Shown here in pieces: positions 1 through 17,734 of a stretch of 64,000 nt of DNA (its first letter is position 1; each line of letters starts with the position of its first letter). Source of the DNA: an uncultured Oscillospiraceae bacterium (lineage in GTDB: Bacteria; Bacillota; Clostridia; Oscillospirales; Oscillospiraceae). The notes under the pieces are model-generated. The model made no database searches, was not told the DNA's origin, and saw nothing but the letters and a program-made list of their open reading frames with translations. A program made the position numbers and the translations under genes. Location: the NCBI GenBank assembly GCA_947625355.1, contig CANQOA010000001.1, positions 62,001 to 126,000 of the forward strand, in the 5' to 3' direction.

Positions 1-1026
1 TGGGCCTATGTCCGGCTTTACGGAAAGAGCCGATGGTCGCTGTCCATGTACGACTCCAGCCTGGGTTTGATCAACAACTACATTATCCCCTATTTCGGCA
101 GCATCCGGCTGCACGAGCTGTCACCCAGGATGGTGGCATGGATGTACGGGGACCTTTTGGGACAGCAGCGCTATAACGGCAAATTCCATAAGCATCCGGG
201 AGAGCGGTTATCGCCCCACACGTTGAAAAGCGTACACAAACTCCTACACAGCGTCTTTGAACAGGCCGTACTTTGGGAATATGTGCCCAGCAATCCCTTC
301 CAGCGGGCGATCCTCCCCAAAATAAAATCTGCTCCGCAGCCATTTCTGACGCCGGAGCAGGTCCACATATTGCTGGCCAACTGCAAGGACTTGCAGTTGA
401 AATTGGCCCTCGAACTGGCATTTGCCTGTACGCTGCGAGAGGGGGAATTGCTTGCTCTGACGTGGGACGACGTTGATTGGGATGAGCACACCCTCCGTGT
501 GAACAAAACGCTCACACGGGCCAGCCGTGCCGCCATAACGGCCCTGGAGCAGCGGGACACCCTGTATATCTTCCCGTCTGTCCGCAAGAATGCCAGCACC
601 GCTCTGGTGCTGAAAGCCCCAAAGACTGATGCCAGCAACCGGATCGTCTACCTGCCGCCCACCGTGATGGGGTCGCTCCTTTTGTGGAAGGGATCGTGCG
701 GAACGCCGCCAGAAGAAGCGCCGAACTTGATCTTCACCTGCGACCGGGGACTCCCATTGCAGAACAGCTTTCTTTTGGAGCAGTTCCACGCGTTGCTAAC
801 CTCCTGCAGTCTGCCGAAGGTCACCTTCCACAGTCTGCGGCATAGCAGCATCACCTATAAGCTCATCCTCACCCACGGCAACATCAAGGCGGTGCAGGGC
901 GATTCCGGGCACGCCCAGGCAGATATGATCACCGAGGTCTACGGGCACATTCTCGACCAGCGGCGCCGCGCCAGTGCGGAGCTGTTTGAGGCGGATTTCT
1001 TTAAGGGGCAATTCCCAGTCAACTAA
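1..1026 (+). CDS. Tyrosine recombinase (phage/ICE-type integrase), 5' end outside window
   Basis: DNA strand exchange enzyme for site-specific integration and excision. The frame is open to the first base, so the N-terminus is missing; an internal Met lies at 46. The N-terminal part is a SAM-like core-binding domain. The C-terminal catalytic domain shows the expected set: Arg in LREGELLALTW, HSLRH, the later His in SGHAQ and the nucleophile Tyr in EVYGHI. The best match is the integrase group of Tn916-like and tRNA-targeting elements. CAGTCAAcTA-type repeats begin in its last codons. The tRNA-Arg remnant 1.8 kb downstream is a plausible attachment site for it (inference). Confidence 0.9.
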   Translation, partial: WAYVRLYGKSRWSLSMYDSSLGLINNYIIPYFGSIRLHELSPRMVAWMYGDLLGQQRYNGKFHKHPGERLSPHTLKSVHKLLHSVFEQAVLWEYVPSNPFQRAILPKIKSAPQPFLTPEQVHILLANCKDLQLKLALELAFACTLREGELLALTWDDVDWDEHTLRVNKTLTRASRAAITALEQRDTLYIFPSVRKNASTALVLKAPKTDASNRIVYLPPTVMGSLLLWKGSCGTPPEEAPNLIFTCDRGLPLQNSFLLEQFHALLTSCSLPKVTFHSLRHSSITYKLILTHGNIKAVQGDSGHAQADMITEVYGHILDQRRRASAELFEADFFKGQFPVN

Positions 1027-1094
1027 AAAAGTCTTGATTCTGCGGGCTTTTCACGCAAATATCAGCCCCTCAGTCAACTATGGGTCAAGTAAAT
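1016..1094. repeat. Cluster of three CAGTCAAnTA direct repeats (candidate integrase arm sites)
   Basis: Copies lie at 1016-1027, 1071-1080 and 1083-1094, overlapping the integrase 3' end and running up to the stop codon of the next gene. Two more copies are at 2608-2620 and 2727-2739. Short same-direction repeats beside a tyrosine integrase are typical arm-type binding sites. The assignment is an inference. Confidence 0.45.
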
Positions 1095-2558
1095 CTAAGC
1101 CCAATACGGAAGGTAGCGTCTGTTTTTATCCGCTGTGGAATCCTCTGAGACCTTGATCAAGCCAACCGCACAGGTCTCGGTCAGCAGCCGGGAGATCATC
1201 GAACGGTTCTTTGCAGGTATCGCAAACCTCTCGCGCAGAGAAGAGTTAGTCATATATTCGCGATTCACCCGTTTCAGGCAGGCATGGAGATAGCAAGCAC
1301 GTACACGATCATCCTTTGTCATATCACCAAATGTCTGATAAGCGTAGAGGATAACCTTTGTATGATTGTCGTATATCTCGATCTCCGGAGCCGGGAGCTG
1401 ATAGAATTCTGTCTGTGCCACGACCTTGTCATATCCGCTGCCTCGCTCCTCACACACGCCCACACGACGCATAAAAGAAGCCAAGCTCTCGTTTCTGGAT
1501 ATAGGCGGATGATCTATAAATCGCTCCTTTTCGATAAGCGGCGTACCAGGATTTGTGATCTCCATCCGGTCGTCAAATATCTCCACCATCGGGCTCGTGC
1601 CTTGGGCAAAGAAATTCTGGTGGATGATTGCGTTTGCGACTAGCTCACGAACCGCCAACTCCGGGTACATCGGCACTGTCCGCCTCAGCGCCTGTCCCAT
1701 GATCTCATTTTCAGGAAGCAGACCGTTGATATAGCTGATCAGTCCCTCAAAGCCATTTGCGTATCCCCTTCCTCCAATCTGTTCTTTGCTCGCAGGGGTG
1801 ATACGGCTTTTGCCCTTGTATACGATAACACGAATCGCTTTTCGTTCCAACGACGGAAAATCACGTATTCGCCTGGCAAACAAAATTGCCCCTAAATTCG
1901 TGATGCTATAAGCGCCTGCATCGTTTTTTGTGATCATCCGATCTTGCAACAGCCGTTCGATGATTCGCTTTCTTCCGCTTGGCAACTCCAGAGAGAGCAT
2001 GTCAAAGTAGGCCGGATAGTCCAAAACTCGTAGGATAAACTCCTCCGACACATTTTCCATAGCGATCAGGCTCTCAAAGGGCCGCTTCGAGAGGATCGCC
2101 CAGAGTTCACGCTCAGTATCCGGAAAATCCTTTAGCTTTTTGTTGCTTGTATCGATCCGAATATAATCTGTTCCACGGAACTTCACCGGTGAAGCATATG
2201 CAGCCGTAATTTCCAGTAACACAACACATTTTCCATCGATCTCTGTTTTGTGAAAATAAAACTGGACTTGGGGCTCAAGCTGAGTAGCGATCCACAAACT
2301 CAATCCTTGATTCCCCACCTTGGCTGTATCCGGGTCGAAGCCTGTACCGACGACCTCATGAGACTCATCATTGACGCCCCAGATCAAGAACCCATGTGGC
2401 TGGCTGAAAAGCGCAGCAGTATTGGAAAGTGAGCTCACATATTCTCCGATTGCCTGGGGATCATAATAGTTCACTTTGAACTCTATCCAAGGAAGCTCCA
2501 CACTATGACTTCTGGCCTCATCTACAATGGCAGCTATCAGATTTGCATCGAAAGGCAT
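1095..2558 (-). CDS. AlbA_2 (Schlafen-like) / HATPase_c_4 ATP-binding protein
   Basis: The 487-aa protein has an N-terminal AlbA_2 domain, the putative DNA-binding module shared with Schlafen proteins (WIEFKVNYYDP, then NTAALFSQPHGFLIWGV). A central HATPase_c_4-like region (ELAVRELVANAIIHQNF) and a C-terminal winged-helix-like segment follow. Proteins of this type are frequent accessory genes in elements and are annotated as regulators or helicase-like ATP-binding proteins; the biochemical function is not settled. The start is ATG at 2558 after GGGGGGAG, with an extended -10 upstream. The gene lies between the integrase and the tRNA-Arg remnant, so it travels with the element. A defence role is possible but not shown. 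Confidence 0.8.
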   Translation of the reverse strand: MPFDANLIAAIVDEARSHSVELPWIEFKVNYYDPQAIGEYVSSLSNTAALFSQPHGFLIWGVNDESHEVVGTGFDPDTAKVGNQGLSLWIATQLEPQVQFYFHKTEIDGKCVVLLEITAAYASPVKFRGTDYIRIDTSNKKLKDFPDTERELWAILSKRPFESLIAMENVSEEFILRVLDYPAYFDMLSLELPSGRKRIIERLLQDRMITKNDAGAYSITNLGAILFARRIRDFPSLERKAIRVIVYKGKSRITPASKEQIGGRGYANGFEGLISYINGLLPENEIMGQALRRTVPMYPELAVRELVANAIIHQNFFAQGTSPMVEIFDDRMEITNPGTPLIEKERFIDHPPISRNESLASFMRRVGVCEERGSGYDKVVAQTEFYQLPAPEIEIYDNHTKVILYAYQTFGDMTKDDRVRACYLHACLKRVNREYMTNSSLRERFAIPAKNRSMISRLLTETCAVGLIKVSEDSTADKNRRYLPYWA

Positions 2559-2579
2559 TTCACTCCCCCCTTACTTTAC

Positions 2580-2588
2580 ATTATAGCA
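2580..2588 (-). promoter_or_regulatory. Extended -10 promoter for the AlbA_2 gene
   Basis: On the minus strand the sequence reads TGCTATAAT, a TGn-extended consensus -10. It lies about 20 bases before the start codon, which is preceded by a GGGGGGAG ribosome binding site. No good -35 is visible, which fits an extended -10 promoter. Confidence 0.55.
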
Positions 2589-2607
2589 CAACTATTCATC
2601 AAGTACA

Positions 2608-2739
2608 CAGTCAAGTAAATAAAAAGTTCATTTTGCACAGAATTACCCAATATCTAGTGTCCCAGTTGTAGTTCTACGCAATATCTATCACTCCATGAAA
2701 GGAGGCTTTTTGTCATGATCACAACTCAGTCAAGCAAAT
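2608..2739. repeat. Two CAGTCAAG(T/C)AAAT direct repeats beside the tRNA-Arg remnant
   Basis: Copies at 2608-2620 and 2727-2739 match the cluster at the integrase 3' end. They sit 90-250 bases from the tRNA-Arg remnant, the spacing expected for arm sites flanking an attachment core (inference). Confidence 0.4.
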
Positions 2740-2774
2740 TAGACCACAGCAGACGCCGATGCCCATTATCATAG
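2715..2774 (+). CDS. 19-codon open frame with strong ribosome binding site (possible remnant)
   Basis: AAAGGAGG precedes this ATG with normal spacing, but the frame closes after 19 codons. A hairpin terminator follows at 2786. It may be a leader peptide or the surviving start of a decayed small gene, such as an excisionase. No family is recognisable. Confidence 0.25.
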   Translation: MITTQSSKLDHSRRRCPLS

Positions 2775-2785
2775 ATATACATCTA

Positions 2786-2822
2786 ATCAGGCCCCGGCTA
2801 TAAAACCAGAGCCTGATCATTT
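2786..2822 (+). terminator. Rho-independent terminator-like hairpin
   Basis: The arms ATCAGGC (2786-2792) and GCCTGAT (2811-2817) are perfect complements, and a short T-rich stretch follows. The hairpin lies downstream of the 19-codon frame and beside the tRNA remnant. Confidence 0.45.
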
Positions 2823-2823
2823 T

Positions 2824-2895
2824 CATCAAGTGTGGATTCGAACGTCCAACCTGCCGCTTAGGAGGCGAATGCTCTATCCACTGAGCTACTGGGGC
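2824..2895 (-). pseudogene. Decayed tRNA-Arg (anticodon CCU)
   Basis: Read on the minus strand, the 5' half is a good tRNA: acceptor GCCCCAG, D-arm GCTC...GAGC and anticodon loop CTCCTAA (anticodon CCT). The 3' half fails: the T-stem GGACG/CCACA mispairs, and the 3' acceptor strand CTTGATG cannot pair with GCCCCAG. This looks like a tRNA whose 3' half was replaced, as expected of an old integration site. It is unlikely to be functional. Confidence 0.65.
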
Positions 2896-2946
2896 GTGTT
2901 CATTTTTCGGCGCGACACCCCCGAAAAAGCGGAATACTCGCGTTTA

Positions 2947-2970
2947 CTTAGGAGGCGGCTGCTCTATCCA
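2947..2970 (-). repeat. Second tRNA-Arg(CCU) fragment, direct repeat of 2857-2880
   Basis: 24 bases covering the D-arm through the anticodon loop match 22 of 24 positions of the tRNA remnant 90 bases away, in the same orientation. The flanking sequence is unrelated. This is consistent with a second attachment-site scar. Confidence 0.6.
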
Positions 2971-3014
2971 TTTCAGGATAATGCTCAGTGGACACAAAGG
3001 CACAAGGCAGCCCG

Positions 3015-4253
3015 CTAGGACAAGAAAACTTCCTGTTCAATCGTTTTGCCGTATTGGAGTATTTTTACAGCAGCATCATAAAATCGGTCAATAGCACCAC
3101 TTTGCAGCACCCGGTCGAGTTCCTCCAGATATGCCGGCGGCCTCGACAACCCAAAACGAGCATATTGCTCCACTTCGCGGCCACTCATCCTCATCGGCTG
3201 CAGGCGAGGAAATATCCGCCGCAGCCGCTCAAACATCATAAACCCTCCCAGGTCTATATCTCCCCAGAAAAAGAGGTCAACTTCATCTGATACACACACC
3301 GCCAGCTTTTCCAATAGAAGCCGCTTTCGTGGACTCATGAACCCGCCGTGATATATCACAAGCTCTTCTCTCGCCTGTTCCGACAGCAAGTACTCTTCAT
3401 AATTTGTCTTATTCTCAATGAATGTAATGCGCCGTATGCCGTCTAATATAAACATCTCAACGGCTCCAACCGCTGTGCTGGGCAGCGCCAGCCCCGTTGG
3501 AAATAAGGGCGTCGCGTCCACCTCTCCGGCAGATGTTACGATCGTGCAGCAGCCGGACATCAAATAGTATTCCGGGTGGGCATAAATACCGAGAAATGCC
3601 AGCTTTTCCCGTTCACTCAGTTCCTCCTGCGCGCAAAGCGAGCTCAGCTCATAGTCATATCTTTCCGCTATCCTCAAAAAGTCCTTTTGGAATTCCCGCT
3701 CAAATCTCTTGCTGTTTTGAAAGCAGCGAATACTGAATGTGCGGACCGTGACAGTCTCGCCCTCCAAGCGGTCATAGCATGTCAACAGCCGGAGGATATC
3801 CTGTAGAAACCCGTCGCCTTTTCTGCAGATCGCAGGCAGTCTCCACTCCTTCTGAAGCGTCTGACAGACTGCATCCCGCCAGGCTGCGATCCATGGTGTT
3901 TTGACACCGGACAGCGCCGTCTGGATCACCCCGTACACTTTTTCTGCTGTCTGCTGCGGATGCCCACGGCCGAGCGCCTGATACGCCCTTTCAACCTGAT
4001 CCAGTTCCAGAATGACCTTGGAAAAGACCGGCTGGCCGGATATCCATTCCAGCCGGACCAGGCCCTCCGCCTCCAGTTCCTTTGCGGCCTGATTGAACCG
4101 ATCCCTGACAGCGGCGGTCTCCCGGTCATATTCCGGCAGCTCCCTCTTATCGACGCGAAGCATGACGCGCCGGTTGGAGGCGCCCGGCTGCGTCAGATGC
4201 TTGCTGTTCTCGTACTTATCGAGCAGCCGAGACAGGATCACCTCTCGCTCCAC
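3015..4253 (-). CDS. jetD: Wadjet subunit JetD (Toprim nuclease)
   Basis: The 412-aa protein has the JetD layout: an N-terminal DUF3322-like winged-helix region and a C-terminal DUF2220/Toprim nuclease. Toprim-type acidic motifs are visible in FIENKTNYEEYL and FFWGDIDLGGFMMFERL. In known Wadjet systems JetD cleaves circular DNA that the JetABC condensin complex has extruded. The start is GTG at 4253 after GGAGGTG, overlapping the jetC end by 16 bases, so translation is probably coupled. It is the last gene of the operon. About 120 bases separate its stop from the tRNA remnant. Confidence 0.9.
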   Translation of the reverse strand: MEREVILSRLLDKYENSKHLTQPGASNRRVMLRVDKRELPEYDRETAAVRDRFNQAAKELEAEGLVRLEWISGQPVFSKVILELDQVERAYQALGRGHPQQTAEKVYGVIQTALSGVKTPWIAAWRDAVCQTLQKEWRLPAICRKGDGFLQDILRLLTCYDRLEGETVTVRTFSIRCFQNSKRFEREFQKDFLRIAERYDYELSSLCAQEELSEREKLAFLGIYAHPEYYLMSGCCTIVTSAGEVDATPLFPTGLALPSTAVGAVEMFILDGIRRITFIENKTNYEEYLLSEQAREELVIYHGGFMSPRKRLLLEKLAVCVSDEVDLFFWGDIDLGGFMMFERLRRIFPRLQPMRMSGREVEQYARFGLSRPPAYLEELDRVLQSGAIDRFYDAAVKILQYGKTIEQEVFLS

Positions 4254-7200
4254 GCGCTCTTCACCTCCTTGGTATAGGGAAGCACCTGCATCGTGTAGCG
4301 CTCCCTGCAGACCAGCAGCGTACGATCCGCCTGTGGCATGATATCCGGCAGCTTGTCCGGCGGTGTGCAGATGATCGCCTGCAGATGCATCCTCCGCAGC
4401 AGCCGGACGCTTTCGATGATGCGGTCGTTGTCCATCTTATTGAACGCCTCGTCGAACACGATCAGCCGCACGGTGTTGCCAAAGCTGGACGTATCATTGA
4501 CACGGTAGAGCTGGGCAAAGGAAGCGAGGACCGCTATATAAAAAGGTGTCTGGGTCTCACCACCGGACTTCGTATTTAGCGTTTGAGACAGGAGCTGTTT
4601 GTTCCCGTTCGGGTCCGTTGTCTCCAGGTCAAATTTCAGATAGGTGCGAAAATCCGTATAGAGCTCGATGTTCTTCTGCAGCTCGCTCTGCTTCCGGGCG
4701 TTGGTCTGCGTATCGTCCGACGCCGTGATACGCCCAAACAGGTCTTCGATAAGCGGGCCGTATTTTTGCTGGAACGGCAGGGCAAAGAGGCCGCCCTCGC
4801 CCTCGATCAGTTCCGGCGCCATGATCATGTCATAATAGGCGGCGTAATCCGGGTTTCGCTCGACCTTGAATTGATACTGGTCCGTTCCAAACTGCGCCTG
4901 CTTCAGCGCCCTGTTCAGATTCTTTACCTGCCCATCTACGTTTTGTATGCCATCCCGCAGTTTGGCAAGGAAGTCATTTTGGAACTGTTCCAGCGCGCTT
5001 TCCCGGGCCTGCTTGATCTTCTCTCTGTATCGGGGCAGTTCGCTCTCTTCCAGCCGGCGGCGCTCATCGTCGAATTCCTGGTTATCCATGACATCGACGC
5101 GGAAGGAGCACGGCTGGAACTGCTGGACGTAATCCCGGCGCGCTGTAAGCAGATTGTTCTTGGTCTGGGCAACGTCATTTTGCGCACGGGGCACTTGATC
5201 CCCAAAGTTTTTCGCGACCACGGAAGCACGCTTCAGCCTTTCTATTTCCTGCTCATACCGAGGCAGCCCGACTGTATTTTGATAGTCAGAGGAAAACTCT
5301 TCCTCGATCTCCGCATCTCGGGCCATCAACCTCTCGTTACGCTCCGGGATCTTCTCATAGTCCAAATTGCCCTGCTGGTTCTTCAATTCGCCGATACGGG
5401 CCGAACACGCCTCGATCTCGCCGCGCTGCCTGCCGATCGTTTTTTCCAATTCATCTATCTGTTTATCCAGCTCATTCAGCCAGAACAGATCCAGGTGGGA
5501 CAGTTTATCCTCGATGCTTCCCAGCTCCGTGGTGATCTCAAGGCCCCGGACATAGTCGCGCTGACGCTGTTCCGCCTCCTGGACAAAGCGGCCCGTGAAC
5601 AGGAACTCGCGCCCTTTTCGACCCGTCAGTTCATCGCATATCGGCTTTAACCGCCGCTCTTCGTCGGACAGCTCTTTCTGCCTGCTCAGGAGCATTTCTA
5701 TCCGCAGATCGATGGCCTTGCGGCCTATAAAGGCGTCCTCCATTTTGGACTTCAGCATCGGCCGGGCCACATAGCCCTGGTATAACATTCCCTCTGCCGT
5801 TACTGCCGTGCGGTGACGGCGAAGCTGGCTCGTATGGGTGCAGCAGACGACCCGTCCCAACAGATAGTCGATATAACTGCGCGCCAGCGGATCGTCGGTC
5901 TGAACTTTTTTCGCCAAGCTGTCGTCCCATGCCTCCAGACGTTCCCTCTCCCTCAGCTTCCCGATATCCACGAGGCCAAAGGACTGTCTGCGATACTGAT
6001 GCTTGATCCTGTCGAAAATCTCCAGCGCATCCGTGTATACGTCAGGATCCACCAGCAAATAGAATTTCTGCGTATTCAGATACCCCTCCACCGCGCCGCG
6101 CCACATCTCCTCACCGTCGGCGATCTCCAGCACGTCGGCCAGCACATTTACGGATACCGGCCGCTTATACCGTGTTAAGAGCTGCGAATGGAGCTGGTTT
6201 TTCAGATCAAGCAGTCCCTCCGGATAATCCTTGATGTTTTTCCGCAGTTGCGCCAGGGTTCCCTGGACCCGTGACATTTCCTCCCGCAGCCCGTTCATCA
6301 CGCTCTCCATCTCATACGCCGCTTTGCGCAGACACTCGGCAAATCCCTCTGTGGCCTTCTGCGCCGTCACAAAAACCGCGACTGACCCGGAAAAGATCTC
6401 CGGCGTGCTCGTTTCCAGCGGCAGGCATGCCTTTTCCAGCACGCCGGCTGCTTCCTTTAGGGCCATGAAATGCTCATCTTGGGGCCATTGGTCCGTGAGC
6501 CGGCACAGCGACACCAGTACATTTGCCTCTCGCTTTACGGCCTGGACCGTTCGCCCGATCCCTTCCATCAGGCGCTTTTGCTCCTGCTCCAGTGTCTCCT
6601 GTTGTCTCCGCAGCCGCTCCTGTTCCTTGTAAACGTCGTTTTGAGCGCGATCGGCTATCAGTTCATTCTTCCGGCGGTCATTCTCCTGGACCTGCCTTTT
6701 CAGCTCTTCTCTTTTATTTTCTTCGTCCTCTATCTGCCGGGCACAGTCATCGCGCTCCACGGTCAATTTTTCGATCTGTTGCTCCAGCGAGACTTTTTCC
6801 GCCCACAGCGCGAGAAACCGGTGAAGCTGCAGCCGGTCCACGGCCGCCTGATACTCACGGAAATACTGCGCGATCTTCGTCAGGCGCTCTATTTTTTCCT
6901 CCTGGCGGCGGGCCAGTTCCTCATGCCGCTTGTAGTCGCGGATATTCTGCTGCATGGCCTCGATATCCGGTTTGTCCGGAATGTCGCAGATATTTTCAGT
7001 GATAAATTCCTGAATGTTGACGATGGGCCGGAAGGAGACCGCCTTTTTCATCATCCGGCACACTTGCTCATTATGTACGTTCCACTTTGCCAGCAGATCT
7101 TCCCGATAGCGTTTATTGCTGTCGTACATCTGATAGCGGGACCCCAGCTGCGCCTTCAACCATGCCCGCAGGGCGGCAATATCCATGGGTACGCCGTTGA

Positions 7201-7612
7201 CAAGATAGCAGGTCCCCGGTATGGGGCTGTCATACAGGAAAAACTGATCCCTGCGGCTGCCGTCACTGTGGCAGTCAAAGACGATCCCGGCCGTAAAGCG
7301 GCCACCGGACTGATCGTCCAAAAACTCGCAGGCGATATAGCTGGAGAAATCCTTTCCCCGCCGGGATCTGGGATTGTTGGTGTCCATATCCGCCCGGAGA
7401 TAACCGTCCAGTGTGCGCTGGGAGCTGTCATTCGCCGCCTTGTTAAAGTTTCTGGCGTTCGTCTCGCCCAGAAGAACGATCTGCAGCGCGTCAATGATCG
7501 TGGATTTGCCCGCTCCGTTTTTGCCGGTGAGAAAGTTGATGTCGTCGATCTCCAGAAGCTGCTTTGAGAAATACAGCCAGTTAATCAACAGTATCTTCGT
7601 CAGCTTCTTCAT
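4238..7612 (-). CDS. jetC: Wadjet subunit JetC (SMC-like ATPase)
   Basis: This 1124-aa SMC/MukB-like ATPase carries Walker A GKNGAGKST at residues 30-38. Long coiled-coil arms follow, with many Glu/Arg/Gln heptads, around a central hinge-like globular region. The C-terminal head has the signature region KSGGETQTPFYIAVL and Walker B LIVFDEAFNKMD. In Wadjet it is the loop-extruding motor that recognises plasmids by topology. The frame is open further upstream, but ATG at 7612 (MKKLTKILLI) is the family-like start and gives a 32-base overlap with jetB. It acts with MukF-like JetA, MukE-like JetB and the nuclease JetD. Confidence 0.93.
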   Translation of the reverse strand: MKKLTKILLINWLYFSKQLLEIDDINFLTGKNGAGKSTIIDALQIVLLGETNARNFNKAANDSSQRTLDGYLRADMDTNNPRSRRGKDFSSYIACEFLDDQSGGRFTAGIVFDCHSDGSRRDQFFLYDSPIPGTCYLVNGVPMDIAALRAWLKAQLGSRYQMYDSNKRYREDLLAKWNVHNEQVCRMMKKAVSFRPIVNIQEFITENICDIPDKPDIEAMQQNIRDYKRHEELARRQEEKIERLTKIAQYFREYQAAVDRLQLHRFLALWAEKVSLEQQIEKLTVERDDCARQIEDEENKREELKRQVQENDRRKNELIADRAQNDVYKEQERLRRQQETLEQEQKRLMEGIGRTVQAVKREANVLVSLCRLTDQWPQDEHFMALKEAAGVLEKACLPLETSTPEIFSGSVAVFVTAQKATEGFAECLRKAAYEMESVMNGLREEMSRVQGTLAQLRKNIKDYPEGLLDLKNQLHSQLLTRYKRPVSVNVLADVLEIADGEEMWRGAVEGYLNTQKFYLLVDPDVYTDALEIFDRIKHQYRRQSFGLVDIGKLRERERLEAWDDSLAKKVQTDDPLARSYIDYLLGRVVCCTHTSQLRRHRTAVTAEGMLYQGYVARPMLKSKMEDAFIGRKAIDLRIEMLLSRQKELSDEERRLKPICDELTGRKGREFLFTGRFVQEAEQRQRDYVRGLEITTELGSIEDKLSHLDLFWLNELDKQIDELEKTIGRQRGEIEACSARIGELKNQQGNLDYEKIPERNERLMARDAEIEEEFSSDYQNTVGLPRYEQEIERLKRASVVAKNFGDQVPRAQNDVAQTKNNLLTARRDYVQQFQPCSFRVDVMDNQEFDDERRRLEESELPRYREKIKQARESALEQFQNDFLAKLRDGIQNVDGQVKNLNRALKQAQFGTDQYQFKVERNPDYAAYYDMIMAPELIEGEGGLFALPFQQKYGPLIEDLFGRITASDDTQTNARKQSELQKNIELYTDFRTYLKFDLETTDPNGNKQLLSQTLNTKSGGETQTPFYIAVLASFAQLYRVNDTSSFGNTVRLIVFDEAFNKMDNDRIIESVRLLRRMHLQAIICTPPDKLPDIMPQADRTLLVCRERYTMQVLPYTKEVKSAWSER

Positions 7613-8216
7613 CGCCGTCTTCTTCCTCCTTTCGCAGCATGGAGACCACAGCGTCCAGCCGTTCGCTGGATACCACCGTGAGGATCGTTGGCAAAATGAC
7701 GAATTTGCACCCCGTTTGGCTGAATCTGCCCTGTATCCGCTGAAGGATACTGTGCTGTTCAAAGATCGTCAGCGCCCGCTTCACCTCTTCCATATTGGGG
7801 CGGGTGGAGAAGATCGCATAGTCCGCCACCACCTTATCCAGCAGATCATGGACCGTGCAAAGCACATCCTGTTCCAAACCGGTCTGATCCTGGTTCTCGT
7901 CGTAGATCATGCGCAGGGCGAGCAGGATGGCGGTGGCTTTCTGATTGAGCGCACAGCGGTTGGCCTCGTCAGTATTTACAACGTAAAAGTACCCGTTAAA
8001 ATCGTCCTTCCGCAGATCCCAGTCCAGCAGGCCGAGATAGCCCCGCACCACCGATTGATGGAGGGACAAAAACGTATAATCAGGGTTGCTGATACGCCCT
8101 TTATCCTGAACATAGATCGTTCTGACGACAAAAGTACGGCTGAGGAGCAGATTGCACACACGTGTAAACTGCTCCAATTCCTTTCCGGAAAAGCGCTCAA
8201 GTTCCGAAAGATCCAT
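7581..8216 (-). CDS. jetB: Wadjet subunit JetB (MukE-like, DUF4194)
   Basis: The 211-aa protein matches DUF4194/MukE-like kite subunits of SMC complexes, with a winged-helix segment around SLHQSVVRGYLGLLDWDL. The C-terminus is strongly acidic (EEEDGDEEADED). In Wadjet it bridges the kleisin JetA and the JetC ATPase. ATG at 8216 lies after AGAGGAG and overlaps jetA by 20 bases; its own end overlaps jetC by 32. The nested overlaps indicate a single transcript and coupled translation. Confidence 0.9.
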   Translation of the reverse strand: MDLSELERFSGKELEQFTRVCNLLLSRTFVVRTIYVQDKGRISNPDYTFLSLHQSVVRGYLGLLDWDLRKDDFNGYFYVVNTDEANRCALNQKATAILLALRMIYDENQDQTGLEQDVLCTVHDLLDKVVADYAIFSTRPNMEEVKRALTIFEQHSILQRIQGRFSQTGCKFVILPTILTVVSSERLDAVVSMLRKEEEDGDEEADEDTVD

Positions 8217-9624
8217 CTTTCTTCTCCTCTTTCCTTTCCAGCCTGAACTGCGGGATGGAATAGGCCCCCTCTTTGTAGCTTCCGTCCAACGTCTTTACAT
8301 GATAAAAGCTCTTCCGGTCCCCTCCGTTCAGGACCGCCAACAGACACATGATATAGGCGTGGTCATCTTCCGGCGCCATATCCCTCGAATACAGGACCGT
8401 CTGCTCCCCAAACCGCTGGCGTATGTATTCCTCCTGCGCGGCGCGGCTGTACGGCGTTGACAACATTTCTTCCGCCTGCTCCCGTGTTTCCTGGCTGACG
8501 CTGGCATCTTCTACTGCAACGGGTTCGGTCATCTTGCGGCGGGTCGGCCGTTTGCGTATCCACAGGCTTTTTTCCGAAAGGAATGACTGTTCATAAAGCA
8601 GAAACGCCGGCTGAATGGCCTCTGTCAGCTTACCCGCCCTCCGATTCTGAGACAACCTCGTCAGAAGATAATTCAGATTGCCACGGATGTTCTGGTCCCA
8701 ATTCGCCAGGTTCTCCAGCTTCTGCGTGGTTGCCCGCGTATACCGCCGGACCTGTTGATCGATCTCGTTCAGATAATCGCTTTCAATGCTTTCATACCGC
8801 TCCTTGACCCAAAATATCTTCTCGATCAGTTCCCCCCGGCAGGCTTCCAGCGTGTCGCGCCGCTTATCCTGCAAGGCGGCATTGGCCATAGCTAACAGGA
8901 CCCCGTCATCCTCCAGCCACTCCTCCAGAATGGTCAGGATCGGGACGCGATACTTCGGAACAGAATCCTTGATCTTCAACGGGCGGATATATGCTTCCAT
9001 GACCCGCTCGCCAAAATCGTCAAAGTGCGTTGACAGGACCTCATTGATGTCCTGCATCTCAATTTGTATTTGAAAGTACCGCCTCACGTTGTGATAGACG
9101 GTTTTCAGCATTTTTATGAGCGCCATCGTGTTATCATAGGCGCTGTATACGGCCATCATCTTTTCATAGGCCGTTCCGCTGTCCTTTGCGACTTTTAAGG
9201 ACGAGTAGGTCCCGAAAACATAGGAATATCCCCGCATAGGTGCGTCATCACGCAGTTGATGAAGCAGCTCCAAAAGCCGGCTGCTGTACCCCGGAATGTT
9301 CAGATACTCCTCGAAGCTCGTATAATCCTTTTCCCGTTCTCTCTCAAACCAACCCTTGCTCCCCAGCTTGCGGATCAGAAATCGAGCACGGCCGGAAATA
9401 TCCCGCAGCTCCTCCTCTTCTATGTCCTCATCCTCAAACGTAGCCTGCGCAAGCTGCTGCTCCAGCCTGCCCCGGAGCATCATATAGTATGTACTCTCCG
9501 GGATCTTAAGATTGCTGTCACCGTATGCCTCATACAGCACATCAAGCGCGTCAGCGTATAAAGCGCGGTTAGGCGACGCCAACACAGAAAACAGTTCCGA
9601 AGGGATAGCCTCGAATAAGCGCAC
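8197..9624 (-). CDS. jetA: Wadjet subunit JetA (MukF-like kleisin)
   Basis: The 475-aa first gene of the Wadjet operon resembles the DUF5716-type JetA family. It has an N-terminal winged-helix segment (LFEAIPSELFSVLASPNRALYADALDVL), a helical middle and a C-terminal winged-helix region. Kleisin-type subunits of this kind bridge the SMC heads. The start codon is GTG at 9624 after AGAGGTG. Only 30 bases separate it from the divergent DUF5348 gene, so the jet promoter probably lies inside that gene. The subunit order A-B-C-D with overlapping ends fits an intact system; the type II label is tentative. Confidence 0.88.
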   Translation of the reverse strand: MRLFEAIPSELFSVLASPNRALYADALDVLYEAYGDSNLKIPESTYYMMLRGRLEQQLAQATFEDEDIEEEELRDISGRARFLIRKLGSKGWFEREREKDYTSFEEYLNIPGYSSRLLELLHQLRDDAPMRGYSYVFGTYSSLKVAKDSGTAYEKMMAVYSAYDNTMALIKMLKTVYHNVRRYFQIQIEMQDINEVLSTHFDDFGERVMEAYIRPLKIKDSVPKYRVPILTILEEWLEDDGVLLAMANAALQDKRRDTLEACRGELIEKIFWVKERYESIESDYLNEIDQQVRRYTRATTQKLENLANWDQNIRGNLNYLLTRLSQNRRAGKLTEAIQPAFLLYEQSFLSEKSLWIRKRPTRRKMTEPVAVEDASVSQETREQAEEMLSTPYSRAAQEEYIRQRFGEQTVLYSRDMAPEDDHAYIMCLLAVLNGGDRKSFYHVKTLDGSYKEGAYSIPQFRLERKEEKKDGSFGT

Positions 9625-9654
9625 AGAGCAACACCTCTTATAAGGAGTTATGAT

Positions 9655-9876
9655 ATGGAAGGTACTTTGATATTCAATGACCTGATCTCCCGCCCGGATC
9701 TGGTTTTACAAAATGGCATGCTTCTTGGGGGCCTTCACTGCGGGGATCGCATAGAATTGTGGCGGAACGGACAGTGGTGTGCTGTTCGCCTGGAATATCA
9801 GGATGATTGGATCGTTTTCTCCGATGAAATATCTACAGCGCCGCCATACGGAGAAAAGGTCCACTATACTGCATAG
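9655..9876 (+). CDS. DUF5348 domain protein
   Basis: The 73-aa protein contains the LHCGDRIELW...GQWCAVRLEYQDDW core typical of DUF5348, a small beta-rich family common on conjugative elements and defence-bearing islands. Its function is unknown. ATG at 9655 follows AAGGAGTTATGAT. It diverges from jetA with a 30-base gap, so the two 5' ends almost touch and their transcripts probably overlap. That suggests a possible regulatory link, but nothing more can be shown from sequence. Confidence 0.75.
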   Translation: MEGTLIFNDLISRPDLVLQNGMLLGGLHCGDRIELWRNGQWCAVRLEYQDDWIVFSDEISTAPPYGEKVHYTA

Positions 9877-10062
9877 ACGGCTGGTTTATTGCAGGCTCGC
9901 TTATATAAGCAAAGATATCACATTTTTCCATTGTGTTCAACAACTCCGCCTCAAATGTCCTGAAAGCGTACTTCAACAAATCGTAAATTTGCCCTGCGTT
10001 GAAGCCGGTAAAGGCAGTTCAGAGAATTGCCAGGAGCAATATAACTTAATCAGTCATAAGAT

Positions 10063-10117
10063 AGTTGACCTATTCCTACTGGAACAACGTTAAAACCTCC
10101 AGCAGAATAGGTCAACT
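10063..10117. repeat. Long inverted repeat (13-bp perfect arms extended inward)
   Basis: The arms AGTTGACCTATTC (10063-10075) and GAATAGGTCAACT (10105-10117) are perfect. CTACTGGA/TCCAGCAG extends the stem inward with one mismatch. No immediate T-tract follows, so it is not a classical terminator. The rest of the 9877-10165 gap shows no gene. Confidence 0.7.
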
Positions 10118-10165
10118 CATATTATGCTCTTTTAAACTACAATATTGAAAGGGGAAACATTCATC

Positions 10166-10462
10166 ATGAACAACAACACTATCAATACCCTGTCCGGCGC
10201 GGTCACACTTCCTGTGTTCGACTTGTTGCACGACCGCATGAATATTCGTAAGATCCGGCGCTTCTATCACGGTCTGTGCGATTTTCAGGAATCAGATCAT
10301 GCGAACATTGCTGTCACGATCATCGACGTCCTCATCCGCTTGGCCGGAAGCGAACTCCCAACCGTGTATACCGAGGTAGTGGCATCCCCAAAACTCCAGG
10401 CCATCTTCCTGGACGAGTTTCTGGCTGACTTTGAGGACATTTTGAGCGAATACGGGGTGTGA
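10166..10462 (+). CDS. Small protein of unknown function (98 aa)
   Basis: This protein is acidic and mostly helical in appearance, beginning MNNNTINTLSG. No known domain is recognised. ATG at 10166 follows GAAAGGGG. An in-frame TTG seven codons upstream is less likely because it overlaps the ribosome binding site. The gene lies between the Wadjet module and the serine recombinase. A recombination directionality factor is one speculative possibility because of size and position. The long hairpin at 10063-10117 lies in its leader. Confidence 0.55.
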   Translation: MNNNTINTLSGAVTLPVFDLLHDRMNIRKIRRFYHGLCDFQESDHANIAVTIIDVLIRLAGSELPTVYTEVVASPKLQAIFLDEFLADFEDILSEYGV

Positions 10463-10521
10463 GCGTATCTTCCCGATACGCCTGGATAAAATAACAACTG
10501 AATAGCAAAGGAGGCGGTCAT

Positions 10522-10698
10522 ATAGTCGCAAAGGAGATACAGGCCGGAGCCATCATTCTTCGCATCCACGACGAGATGTGCCGGCCGCTTGATGATATAC
10601 ACACCGCCTCCATAAGCCATATCGTCTCAGAGGCATACAGAAAACGCAGCCTTCCCTCTCCCCCGACCACAGACAACGCACCTTCCACGCCGCAATGA
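10522..10698 (+). CDS. Small element protein with ATA in start position (58 codons)
   Basis: AAAGGAGG at 10507-10514 is ideally spaced before ATA-GTC-GCA, and the frame stays open for 58 codons. The product begins with VAKEIQAGAIILRIHDEM, which resembles short proteins common on Firmicute conjugative elements (recognised from memory, unverified). No ATG, GTG or TTG serves this frame at the right spacing. Either ATA is used as a rare start or an original ATG has mutated and the gene is silent. Confidence 0.45.
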   Translation: MVAKEIQAGAIILRIHDEMCRPLDDIHTASISHIVSEAYRKRSLPSPPTTDNAPSTPQ

Positions 10699-10786
10699 CT
10701 TTGCGGCGTTTCCATTATTTGGAGCGCCTCACATATTTGACACCGCCTGCATCGTTTTCTATAATATTCTTGAAAGGAGGCCCCAA

Positions 10787-12319
10787 ATGGAGCAATACGT
10801 CATGTATCTGCGAAAATCCCGTTTTGACCGTGACTATGCCGAGTTCAGTGTAGAGGAAACACTCAAGCGCCATAAGGCGATCTTGGACAAGCTGGCGAAT
10901 GATCGTGGGTACCGTATTGCAAAAGTTTATTATGAGGTCGTTTCAGGCGAGTCCATCGCTGCCAGGCCGCAAATTCAAGAGATGCTGGCCGAGGTGAGCG
11001 AGGAGTTTTACGCGGGGGTCCTGGTGGTGGACCTGGAGCGTCTGGCCCGCGGCAACGGCGCCGACCAGGCCTACATCAGCCAGGTGTTCCAGTTTTCCGG
11101 CACCAAGATCATCACCCCCAACAAGATCTACGACCCCAGCAACGAGTTCGACGAGGAGTACTTCGAGTTTGGCCTGTTCATGAGCCGCCGGGAATACAAG
11201 ACCATCAACCGGCGTCTTATCCGGGGCCGCGAGAGCTCCGCCGCCGAGGGAAAGTACCTGGGCAGTATCGCCCCCTATGGCTACCAGCGCATCAAGCTGC
11301 CCAATGAAAAGGGCTACTCCCTGGAGCCTCTGCCGGAGGAGGCGGAGGTGGTAAAGACCGTCTTTGACATGTATCTGTCCGGCGACGGGACTGTGATGAT
11401 CGCCAATTACCTGAACGACCACCACATCCCCACCCGGCATGGAGAGCTGTGGACCTATTCCTCCATCTTCAATATGCTCAAAAACCCGGTCTACTGCGGC
11501 AAGATACGCCGTGGCTGGTGCAAGCAGGTCAAGCGCATCGAAAACGGCGAGGTCAAGCGGCATATCAAGCACCTGCAGGACCCCGGCGACTATGAGATAT
11601 TCCAGGGCCTGCACCCGCCGCTCATCAGCGAGGACATCTTCACCGAGGCCCAGCGCGTCCGCACAGAGCGCCCATCCAACGCCCATGTCAAAGAGAACTT
11701 TGAACTGCAAAACGCCTTCGCCGGTCTTATCTACTGCGCCAAGTGCGGCAAGCGCATAGGCCGCACCGTTTCCAACCGGGGCGTCCCCCGGTTCCGGTGC
11801 GTCAATCACCGCAACTGTCACACAGCCAGCTACGACTACGCCAAGACCGAGGAGCAGGTCATCTCCGCTCTGCGCCAATGGGTAAAGGGCTACACAGTGG
11901 AGATCGAAAACGTGAGCTTTGAGAGCGAGGCGGATTCCTGTCGGGACAGGATCGGGCAGCTCACCGCCGAACTGGAAAAGCTGAACGCCCAGCTGGATAA
12001 CGCCTTCGACCTGGTGGAACAGGGCCTCTACACAAAAGAGGAGTTCCGCCGGCGCAAGGAGAAGATCACCGGCAGCCAGAAAGCCGTCCAGTCCCAGCTT
12101 GACAGCCTCTATGAACGGCTGCCCGCCCTGGAGGAACAGGCGGACTTCCATGAGAACCTGATACCCCAGACGGAGGCGCTGCTGGACAGCTACGACCAGA
12201 TGGCCGCGACAGAGCGCAACAAGCTCCTGAAGGAGATACTCTACCGCATCGAGTACCGCAAGGACCATGACGGCGCGCTGGAGATCGACATCTATCCGAA
12301 GATACCCATGAAGCAGTAG
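10787..12319 (+). CDS. Large serine recombinase
   Basis: The 510-aa protein has an N-terminal resolvase domain with the catalytic serine in YLRKSR (about residue 11) and DLERLARGNG. A recombinase domain (GYQRIKL to NPVYCGKIRRGW) follows. Next come a zinc ribbon (CAKCG...CVNHRNC, about 318-345) and a coiled-coil segment. Enzymes of this class integrate and excise elements at short sites with a central dinucleotide. ATG at 10787 follows AAAGGAGG. The gene ends about 25 bases before the dyad in the spoIVB coding sequence, the usual position of an integrase at the end of its element. The first 190 bases look less GC-rich than the remainder. Confidence 0.93.
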   Translation: MEQYVMYLRKSRFDRDYAEFSVEETLKRHKAILDKLANDRGYRIAKVYYEVVSGESIAARPQIQEMLAEVSEEFYAGVLVVDLERLARGNGADQAYISQVFQFSGTKIITPNKIYDPSNEFDEEYFEFGLFMSRREYKTINRRLIRGRESSAAEGKYLGSIAPYGYQRIKLPNEKGYSLEPLPEEAEVVKTVFDMYLSGDGTVMIANYLNDHHIPTRHGELWTYSSIFNMLKNPVYCGKIRRGWCKQVKRIENGEVKRHIKHLQDPGDYEIFQGLHPPLISEDIFTEAQRVRTERPSNAHVKENFELQNAFAGLIYCAKCGKRIGRTVSNRGVPRFRCVNHRNCHTASYDYAKTEEQVISALRQWVKGYTVEIENVSFESEADSCRDRIGQLTAELEKLNAQLDNAFDLVEQGLYTKEEFRRRKEKITGSQKAVQSQLDSLYERLPALEEQADFHENLIPQTEALLDSYDQMAATERNKLLKEILYRIEYRKDHDGALEIDIYPKIPMKQ

Positions 12320-13290
12320 TCCCCTGTTGGCATGAAGGCGATGACACACACGTGTGTCACCGCGCCCACCAGCTTCCCGTTTTGGATGATCGGGCTGCCC
12401 GACATGCCCTGGACGATGCCGCCGGTGCGCTGCAAAAGCTCCGGGTCCGTCACATGGACCATCAGGTCCCGGCCGCCGCCGGACACCATGCCCGTGCGGG
12501 AGATCTCCACGTCATATTCCCGGATCTCCCGGCCTGCCACGCAGGCCAGGATCGTGGCCGGGCCCTTCACCACATCCCCCGGCGCGCCCACCGGGATGGC
12601 CGGGCGCAGCGCGCCCAGGCTGCCGCTCATGACGCCAAAAATGCCGCAGGAGGTGTTGGTGTTGATGCACCCCACCACATCGCCGCCGTCAAAGCTGCCG
12701 GCCAATTCTCCGGGCACGCCGGCGGCGCCCCGCTTCACATCCACGATCCGCGCCAGGCACACGCTGCCGTCCGCCACGGGCAGCAGCACCCCCGTCTCCA
12801 GATCGTTGACCCCATGGCCCAGGGCACCGAAAGCCCCGGTGTCCGGGTCGATATAGGTCACCGTGCCGATGCCGGTCACGCCGTCCCGCAGCCAAAGTCC
12901 CAGCCGCAGACCGCCCCCGGCCTCACGGGCCGGCGTCACCTCCACGGTGCGCAGCTGGCCGTCCCGCTTCACAGAAAGCTGTGCCGGCCCGCCGTCCATG
13001 CTCTCCACCGCGACCAGAAGATCGGCCGCGTCATGCACTGTCCGGCCCCCGATCGCCACGATCACATCCCCGGCCTGCAGGCCCGCTTCCCTGGCGGGGC
13101 ACGCCGCGCCGGACTGGGTCTGCACATCGGTGACGCCCGCCACCAGCACGCCCTCCATTTTTATTTGTATCCCCACCGTCTCCCCCACGGGGATCAGCTC
13201 CCCGTCGGCAAAGGCCGTCACCGTACAGGCGGCCGTTATCAACCACGCGGCGGCCGCTGCCAGCAGCCGCCGGCGCCAATGCTTCTCCAT
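12292..13290 (-). pseudogene. spoIVB: spoIVB (S55 peptidase), 3' end interrupted by the recombinase element
   Basis: SpoIVB is the forespore-secreted serine protease that triggers sigma-K activation. Visible are a signal/anchor segment (LLAAAAAWLITAACTVTAFA), a PDZ domain (about 55-125), the catalytic-region His in GALGHGVND, and the serine motif GIVQGMSGSPIIQNG followed by VGAVTHV. Family members then continue with a VNDPT-like tail of roughly 25-30 residues. Here the frame instead reads CVIAFMPTGDYC and stops inside the recombinase gene, overlapping it by 28 bases. ATG at 13290 follows GGAGGAAAGAGC. Without excision the protein lacks its conserved C-terminus. The usual downstream neighbour spo0A is not seen. 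Confidence 0.85.
12342..12359. other. Candidate serine-recombinase attachment site (attR)
   Basis: An 18-base dyad has perfect 8-base arms TGACACAC and GTGTGTCA around a central AC. It lies at the exact point where SpoIVB homology is lost and 22 bases past the recombinase stop codon. Inverted arms around a 2-base core are the standard architecture of serine-integrase sites. The precise crossover point is inferred. Confidence 0.6.
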
Positions 13291-16408: not shown

Positions 16409-17734
16409 ATGAAGAAAGTATTGGCTATGGTCCTGGCTCTGACGATGATGCTCGTCATGGCCATCCCCGCGTTTGCCGACGGCGGCAGCTCCGTGCAGGA
16501 CATCATCGCCGAGGCCGAGGGCATGACCCTGGAGGAGCTGGCCCAGAAGGCCATCGAGGAATCCAACGGCGCCACCTTCTACGGCGTGGGCAACTCCAGC
16601 CGCGGCGCCACCGCGCTGCCCCTGTTCATCGAGTATCTGCAGAGCATCGACCCGGATTACAACATGGAGTTCGATTGGCAGCAGCCCAAGAACAACAAGA
16701 TCTTCGACCAGCTGACCGCCGACTCCCTGAAGGACACCGGCACCTTTGCCATGACCCTGATCCAGGACGGCAACCAGATCGAGAGCAAGATGGTCCAGAC
16801 CGGCGTTCTGGACACCTTCATCCCCAAGGACTGGGCTGACGCCAACGGCACCACCGCCGCCGACTATGCCGGCTATCTGCCCCTGCAGACCCTGAACAAG
16901 GTCTTTATGTACAACAACACCGGCGACAAGACCTATGACAACGTCTGGGACTTCGTGGCCGAGGGTGAGCACGGCCTGTTCATGGACATCGACTCTGAGA
17001 TCGTGGGCAAGAACTTCCTGTACATGCTCACCGAGGACTCCAACGCCGACAACCTGAAGGCCGCCTTCGACGCTCTGTCCGCCGACGAGCAGGCTTACTT
17101 CCAGCCGGTCGTCGACTCCCTGGTCACCGACGCGGAGGACCTGGGCCTGGGCGAGAACGGCGCTTACGCGCTGGCCTGGATCAAGCTGTGGGTGGAGAGC
17201 TACAACGCCCAGACCGACGACGGCCCCATCTGCAACACCCTGGTGGACCAGTCCGCCACCGACCAGTTCGGCCTGCTGGTGTACTCCAAGCTCCGCTCCG
17301 TTGAGGAGTCCGACTCCGTCAGCAAGAACAACATCACCGTGGCCGCTTATCAGGACGGCTACACCGGCTTCGGCGGCTATGGCTACTGCCACTATCTGTT
17401 CGTCACCGACAACAGCCCCCTGCCCTGGACCGCCTGCGCCTTCATCGCCTACATGACCTGCACCACCGACGGCTTCTCCGCCTGGGGCAAGGACATCGGC
17501 GGCTATTCCTCCAACCCCACCGTCGCCGCTGACAACGAGGAGATCTTCCATCACCAGACCGGCGGCATGGCCGAGGACGGCGAGACCGTGGAGTTCGCCG
17601 CGCTGAACGACGCCGGCTATGACTGGTGGACCAACGAGGGCCAGCTGGTCCTCGAGGACCCCGAGTACTGCGCCAGCGTGTCCTTCACGGTGGGCAGCTG
17701 GATCGAGATGCTGACCAAGTACTCCGCCGGCTGA
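16409..17734 (+). CDS. ABC transporter extracellular substrate-binding protein
   Basis: The 441-aa secreted binding protein has an N-terminal signal peptide (MKKVLAMVLALTMMLVMA, cleavage after AIPAFA). It lacks a lipobox cysteine, so it may be released or held by other means. The body is a periplasmic-binding fold of the class-1/iron-type size. The start follows GGGAGG. It is the first gene of a binding protein-permease-ATPase operon. The ligand cannot be read; the partner permease architecture (two fused membrane domains) is that of Fe3+, thiamine or aminoethylphosphonate-type importers. Confidence 0.82.
   Translation: MKKVLAMVLALTMMLVMAIPAFADGGSSVQDIIAEAEGMTLEELAQKAIEESNGATFYGVGNSSRGATALPLFIEYLQSIDPDYNMEFDWQQPKNNKIFDQLTADSLKDTGTFAMTLIQDGNQIESKMVQTGVLDTFIPKDWADANGTTAADYAGYLPLQTLNKVFMYNNTGDKTYDNVWDFVAEGEHGLFMDIDSEIVGKNFLYMLTEDSNADNLKAAFDALSADEQAYFQPVVDSLVTDAEDLGLGENGAYALAWIKLWVESYNAQTDDGPICNTLVDQSATDQFGLLVYSKLRSVEESDSVSKNNITVAAYQDGYTGFGGYGYCHYLFVTDNSPLPWTACAFIAYMTCTTDGFSAWGKDIGGYSSNPTVAADNEEIFHHQTGGMAEDGETVEFAALNDAGYDWWTNEGQLVLEDPEYCASVSFTVGSWIEMLTKYSAG

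Follow-up and report, generated by a model that had tools for sequence, protein, structure and literature searches.

How does a nuclease system that recognises any small DNA circle, whatever its sequence, fare on an element that would itself become such a circle upon leaving the chromosome? A small excisable carrier of Wadjet offers a natural test of how the nuclease avoids, tolerates or exploits self-attack, and one such carrier is described here. The window, by which we mean the whole 64,000-nucleotide stretch that was analysed (C1:62001-126000), comes from the 2.1-Mb assembly, 97% complete, of an uncultured gut bacterium of the Oscillospiraceae. It holds a predicted type I Wadjet (JetABCD), complete and apparently intact, on an element that splits the sporulation gene spoIVB (Table 1). 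The new part of this arrangement is that Wadjet is carried by a sporulation-gene-intervening element whose target gene is forespore-expressed in model species.

Table 1. Features of the spoIVB-interrupting element and its right border; positions are those of the window unless prefixed C1.
Feature	Position	Strand	Evidence or remark
spoIVB-interrupting element	C1:61488-74357; in-window part 1..12357		9-bp core repeat CACGTGTGT, spoIVB fragments on both sides
Tyrosine integrase, 406 aa, chassis gene	1..1026	+	begins ~194 bases before window position 1
Schlafen AlbA_2 / HATPase_c_4 protein, second cargo gene	1095..2558	-	domains
jetD (Toprim nuclease, 412 aa)	3015..4253	-	PADLOC JetD1 1.2e-165; Pfam JetD_C
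jetC (SMC-like ATPase, 1124 aa)	4238..7612	-	PADLOC JetC1 E=0, 1176 bits; Pfam SbcC_Walker_B + AAA_29
jetB (MukE-like subunit, 211 aa)	7581..8216	-	Pfam DUF4194 2.9e-22 (DUF4194/MksE); PADLOC JetB1 7.3e-53
jetA (MukF/kleisin-like subunit, 475 aa)	8197..9624	-	Pfam JetA 9e-105; PADLOC JetA1 8.8e-161
DUF5348 small protein	9655..9876	+	Pfam PF17295 5.4e-12; divergent from jetA
98-aa chassis protein	10166..10462	+	common to sister elements in G022 and G028; no PHROG match
58-aa small protein, candidate recombination directionality factor	10522..10698	+	VRIHDxxC...IVSxxYKRR family; ATA start
Sigma-A-type recombinase promoter	10737..10765	+	TTGACA-17-TATAAT (12/12); present in most of the clade
Serine recombinase, 510 aa	10787..12319	+	Resolvase/Recombinase/Zn-ribbon; adjoins the right att site
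Right att core CACGTGTGT	12349..12357		centre of imperfect palindrome 12337-12366
5′ part of spoIVB (peptidase S55)	12349..13290	-	TIGR02860 positions 71-381, 9e-90

The genes jetA, jetB, jetC and jetD lie together in a single operon (9624-3015, minus strand) and overlap, in the open reading frame list, by 20 bases (jetA/jetB), 32 bases (jetB/jetC) and 16 bases (jetC/jetD); these values take the ATG at 7612 as the jetC start, within a longer frame that extends to 7762 with an upstream TTG start. A preliminary description of this DNA had read the operon as complete with these overlaps, and the reading frames, PADLOC and Pfam bear this out. The profile search that it had proposed for subunits and type matched all four subunits to type I Wadjet models over essentially their full length (PADLOC), with concordant Pfam assignments. 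Its claim of intact Walker and Toprim motifs likewise stands in alignments with homologues from other Oscillospiraceae: JetC retains Walker A (GKNGAGKST), the signature SGGE and Walker B (VFDEA) in columns that are invariant or nearly invariant among 10 homologues, and JetD retains E280-N281, D332/D334 and G337 in invariant columns, so that the two active sites, whose disruption had been named as evidence against the system, are undamaged. Compared with the PDB, JetC matches JetC 9qxt (9.6e-32). A profile search of the PDB with the JetD alignment gave no match, but a fold search did: the top ten Foldseek matches of the JetD model (pLDDT 88) are C. glutamicum MksG (8b7f, 3.5e-8), P. aeruginosa JetD (7til, 2.6e-7) and topoisomerase VI A (VIA-align Z 13-17). 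As far as sequence can tell, the Wadjet genes themselves are an ordinary type I member, with no departure seen at that level.

The element that carries this operon is delimited by two 9-bp cores, at C1:61488 and C1:74349 (window position 12349), with an element length of 12,861 bp between them, and its left end lies ~513 bases to the left of window position 1, out of reach of the preliminary description. The 5′ part of spoIVB keeps the catalytic GMSGSP motif of the peptidase, and the block VNDPTRGYGIF from the C terminus lies on the other side of the element, where the last 25 spoIVB codons occupy C1:61425-61502, ~500 bases left of the window. When the junctions are compared across several species, the crossover can be placed within a GTG valine codon on the spoIVB sense strand. 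Once joined, the flanks read ...GAVTHVLVNDPTRGYGIF..., which is identical to intact spoIVB copies in relatives and restores the reading frame; excision would, by this reconstruction, restore spoIVB in frame, and the integrated form encodes a SpoIVB without the conserved VNDPTRGYGIF block. The spoIVB fragments, the 9-bp direct repeat and the in-frame restoration thus support the earlier proposal that Wadjet is carried by an interrupting element. No phage structural genes were identified among the main open reading frames of the 12.86-kb element, by identification or by search, so it does not qualify as a prophage, and an Rfam search found no RNA. The idea that the SpoIVB tail encoded by the element (CVIAFMPTGDYCFMGIFG) mimics the lost C terminus was rejected, as these tails vary between sub-families and one is absent. 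A strongly conserved leader (TTTAGCGCGGTTT...TCTCGCATACTGAATGGGCCGGCAGAAAGACGGGAGGA) was observed upstream of spoIVB at 24 loci of the genus, interrupted or not (e.g. L010 ~17290-17370, minus strand), and part of it looks like a sporulation promoter. One genome of the genus (G013) was considered as a mixture of intact and interrupted spoIVB; because the fragment and the intact copy share only 85% identity, they stem from different strains and give no evidence of excision.

Within the element, the position that Wadjet occupies is filled differently elsewhere. A sister element in G022 matches this one at both ends, with 89% DNA identity at the tyrosine integrase and 88% at the small ORF and recombinase, and carries an N6/N4 methyltransferase together with a DndB-like protein where Wadjet sits here; the shared ends and differing middle place the cargo slot at ~1017-10162. 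Elsewhere in the clade, the element side of spoIVB loci encodes, among others, type I R-M, methyltransferases, a cyclase of the CBASS type and an E2 protein, some of these stretches possibly running past the far end of the element, which is often unassembled. Wadjet, searched as JetC, was found in this genome alone among 35 of the genus and in 15 of 300 genomes of the family, the closest being ~60% identical in JetC, and no spoIVB sequence occurs at the family Wadjet loci that were read. These sequences indicate that Wadjet is an exchangeable defence cargo of the 12.86-kb element that splits spoIVB. Near the tyrosine integrase, two spoIVB elements (window 2825-2990 and L044 991-1213) contain at least two partial repeats that resemble tRNA-Arg(CCT), uncalled as tRNA, which are possibly attachment sites of this integrase or of the exchanged cargo.

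The association with spoIVB extends well beyond this genome. A scan of ~85,000 genomes with the recombinase returned 80 relatives, of which 29 loci reach at least 58% identity; among these 29, 26 adjoin a spoIVB fragment (within ~100 bases). At L048 and L063, spoIVB sequence lies a few kb from the recombinase, and the L069 sequence breaks off within the recombinase, its partner contig L067 adjoining spoIVB; none of the returned relatives at 51% identity or less has spoIVB sequence nearby. The gene is cut at the same residue in ~11 of the 35 species of the genus, as against 4 of 138 genomes with spoIVB in a sample from the whole family. Because the recombinases are 87-98% identical between species in which SpoIVB is 71-76% identical, the elements, or their chassis, move between species. 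This spoIVB-site clade of recombinases (~58% and above; L042-L069 and L071), accompanied by a ~60-aa partner and variable cargo in Oscillospiraceae and other Clostridia, is apparently an undescribed element family. At L063 (14702-15664), a clade recombinase and a seemingly complete spoIVB are ~3 kb apart, so that an additional copy of the gene, another insertion site or an inversion may exist.

The recombinase promoter is a perfect match and is followed by a ribosome site, and most of the clade keeps a promoter of the sigma-A type. In all spoIVB elements whose upstream sequence can be read, a ~60-codon ORF with the motif VRIHD..C...IVS.SYKRR lies 190-410 bases upstream of the recombinase. A profile of 18 members recovers held-out members from spoIVB elements at E 1e-15 or better, along with one intermediate match (L070, 7e-11) and weak matches elsewhere; the protein belongs to no Pfam or PHROG family. 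Its position and size suggest a candidate directionality factor, by analogy with the skin element of C. difficile. The recombinase, its promoter and the att sites read as intact. The small ORF can plausibly start only at ATA, with a good ribosome site, in this genome, G022, G023 and G026, and begins with ATG in G028 and other sub-families. The ATA codon was considered as a lock driven by Wadjet and rejected: it recurs in three related elements where Wadjet was not found, and so is no Wadjet-linked lesion. Some of the upstream regions of the small ORF contain, by eye, a sigma-F-like -10 box that is also a fair sigma-A match.

With the genes intact, the borders placed, the reading frame restorable and the cargo seen to be exchanged, we infer the activity of Wadjet, the timing of excision and the fate of the circle as follows. 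Probably, Wadjet is cargo of a spoIVB element that was integrated by the serine recombinase and is restricted in its excision by the candidate directionality protein, and the excised circle would be a Wadjet target. As in other type I Wadjets, for which the mechanism is established and from which it is carried over by homology, JetABC would be loaded onto DNA and extrude loops until, on a small closed circle, it met itself and triggered cutting by JetD. While integrated, the element and the chromosome would escape attack, as the chromosome exceeds the size that Wadjet cuts, and the element would gain by the exclusion of competing plasmids and other small circles. The constitutively made serine recombinase would have placed the element in spoIVB, and excision is probably limited by the small protein from the ORF just upstream, as in the skin element of C. 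difficile, in which the recombinase is constitutive (sigma-A promoter) and a small directionality factor confines excision to the sporulating mother cell (PMC5025042). The circle arising from excision would be open to attack; in the simplest reading this cost is tolerated, with excision being rare or happening where the circle is no longer needed.

The question of self-targeting is real. Linear DNA and circles larger than ~50-100 kb are left uncut by type I Wadjet (PMC12287153, PMC10586767); a circle of 12.86 kb falls below this cut-off, and Wadjet should therefore cut it. In this respect the preliminary description was right to see the excised circle as a possible target, but its further suggestion, that the element might thereby be locked in the chromosome, is unsupported. 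The apparatus for excision is undecayed: the recombinase is intact and 87-98% identical to those of elements in related species where Wadjet was not found, the promoter and att cores are intact, and the small candidate directionality protein is conserved. A lock of this kind, in which only integrated copies would survive the cutting of the circle and spoIVB would stay interrupted, is quite unlikely in our estimation, even with the size of the predicted circle and the plasmid record in its favor. Queries with jetC against 72,556 plasmid records found type I jetC in nine records from eight species, all of at least 174 kb, to which a jetD query added only a 2-Mb replicon. Plasmids carrying type I HsdR are smaller than those with jetC (rank test p=1e-5), and the size of at least 174 kb is reached by 8/8 jetC plasmids versus 26/60 HsdR plasmids (p=0.002). 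These sizes fit Wadjet being kept off small circles, in a sample that is small and confounded by host; however, the size difference is weaker against a second control, plasmids with Schlafen cargo (rank test p=0.02), and a review describes Wadjet operons as also encoded in plasmids of variable sizes (PMC10586767). Control of directionality of the skin type would explain rare vegetative excision without any Wadjet lock. Two 'phage' records with JetC-like proteins were set aside as unannotated linear metagenome scaffolds whose phage status is unsupported.

The interrupted gene adds a further difficulty. The sporulation genes named as interrupted in the accessible parts of two published accounts are sigK, spsM, spoVFB, gerE and yabG, of which sigK and gerE are given there as acting in the mother cell (PMC10747680, PMC5595907). 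Because the mother cell is discarded, loss of an element there costs nothing. In B. subtilis, spoIVB is a forespore gene, and in model species both SpoIVB and sigma-G do their work in the forespore; excision in that compartment would leave the germ line with a circle that is sensitive to Wadjet. Either excision takes place elsewhere, or SpoIVB is dispensed with, or the circle is protected. A second interruption of this kind was observed in sigG, in this genome (G000:C29:17642-18130; L153 and L156), also at L169 and L170, and in all in about a dozen of the 35 genomes of the genus, at model position ~91-94 and with core GGTGCCGAT in G025; complete sigG elements in G025 and G010 are ~14-16 kb and have distant serine recombinases (23-25% identical to that in the window).

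Alternatively, the host or its lineage could be non-sporulating, with spoIVB as a tolerated landing site, excision irrelevant and Wadjet a resident defence island. The interruption in the same genome of sigG, another key sporulation gene, the loss of the C-terminal block from the SpoIVB fragment and the frequency of spoIVB interruption in the genus (~11/35) agree with this, but we hold it unlikely: the spoIVB and sigG frames are open on both sides, the spoIVB leader is intact, most relatives have whole copies, and the conservation of the recombinase, promoter and small ORF suggests that the elements still recombine. It is rather improbable that the circle is instead protected, through an excision in the forespore that allows SpoIVB to be made, with the circle kept in the spore and reintegrated at germination and Wadjet silent or excluded there. 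Reversible-looking insertions occur in the genus in both spoIVB and sigG, forespore genes in model species, and the -10 box upstream of some small ORFs would suit sigma-F; the same box would also suit sigma-A, and the assembled circle junction (attP) was not found in the 35 genus genomes, assemblies rarely keeping such junctions. Less credible still is the cutting by Wadjet of its own circle as a regular step of the life cycle, which would make excision irreversible or select for integrated copies. Were this so, a defence system would double as a developmental or stability device in spore-formers. We retain, as the likeliest reading, Wadjet as exchangeable cargo whose potential for self-attack would be tolerated, for which the spoIVB elements provide matched pairs, i.e. 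the same chassis with and without Wadjet, in which self-attack can be tested.

In the open-access literature that was searched, we found no link between Wadjet and sporulation elements and no interruption of spoIVB or sigG. Here spoIVB and sigG are added to the sporulation genes that removable elements can split, and in model species they are forespore genes, as opposed to sigK and gerE, which the accessible accounts place in the mother cell. Compared with type I Wadjet (JetABCD, also known as MksBEFG and EptABCD), the operon has the same gene order, overlaps, four families, motifs and JetD fold, and only its genomic setting, a small excisable element in spoIVB, is unusual. The yin (yabG), vfbin (spoVFB) and SPbeta (spsM) elements likewise interrupt sporulation genes and can restore them, but they are prophages or prophage-like, reside in other genes and, in the accessible parts of their descriptions, are not reported to carry Wadjet. 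Of the features of the skin and gin type, the following are found here: insertion in a sporulation gene, a short direct repeat, a frame that excision would restore and a large serine recombinase at the junction. As in C. difficile skin (sigK; CD1231 recombinase, CD1234 directionality factor), a serine recombinase with a sigma-A-type promoter lies beside the junction, a small ORF lies inside the element and the interrupted sporulation gene is restorable in frame, whereas here the target is spoIVB, the cargo is a defence system and the directionality factor is a candidate. The gin element of B. cereus (gerE) is also a non-prophage in a sporulation gene, with a shared 9-bp core, serine recombinase and a defence (R-M) cargo; it differs in its 28.6 kb, three serine recombinases and mother-cell target, as compared with the present element, which measures 12.9 kb, has a single serine recombinase alongside a tyrosine recombinase, carries Wadjet and sits in spoIVB.
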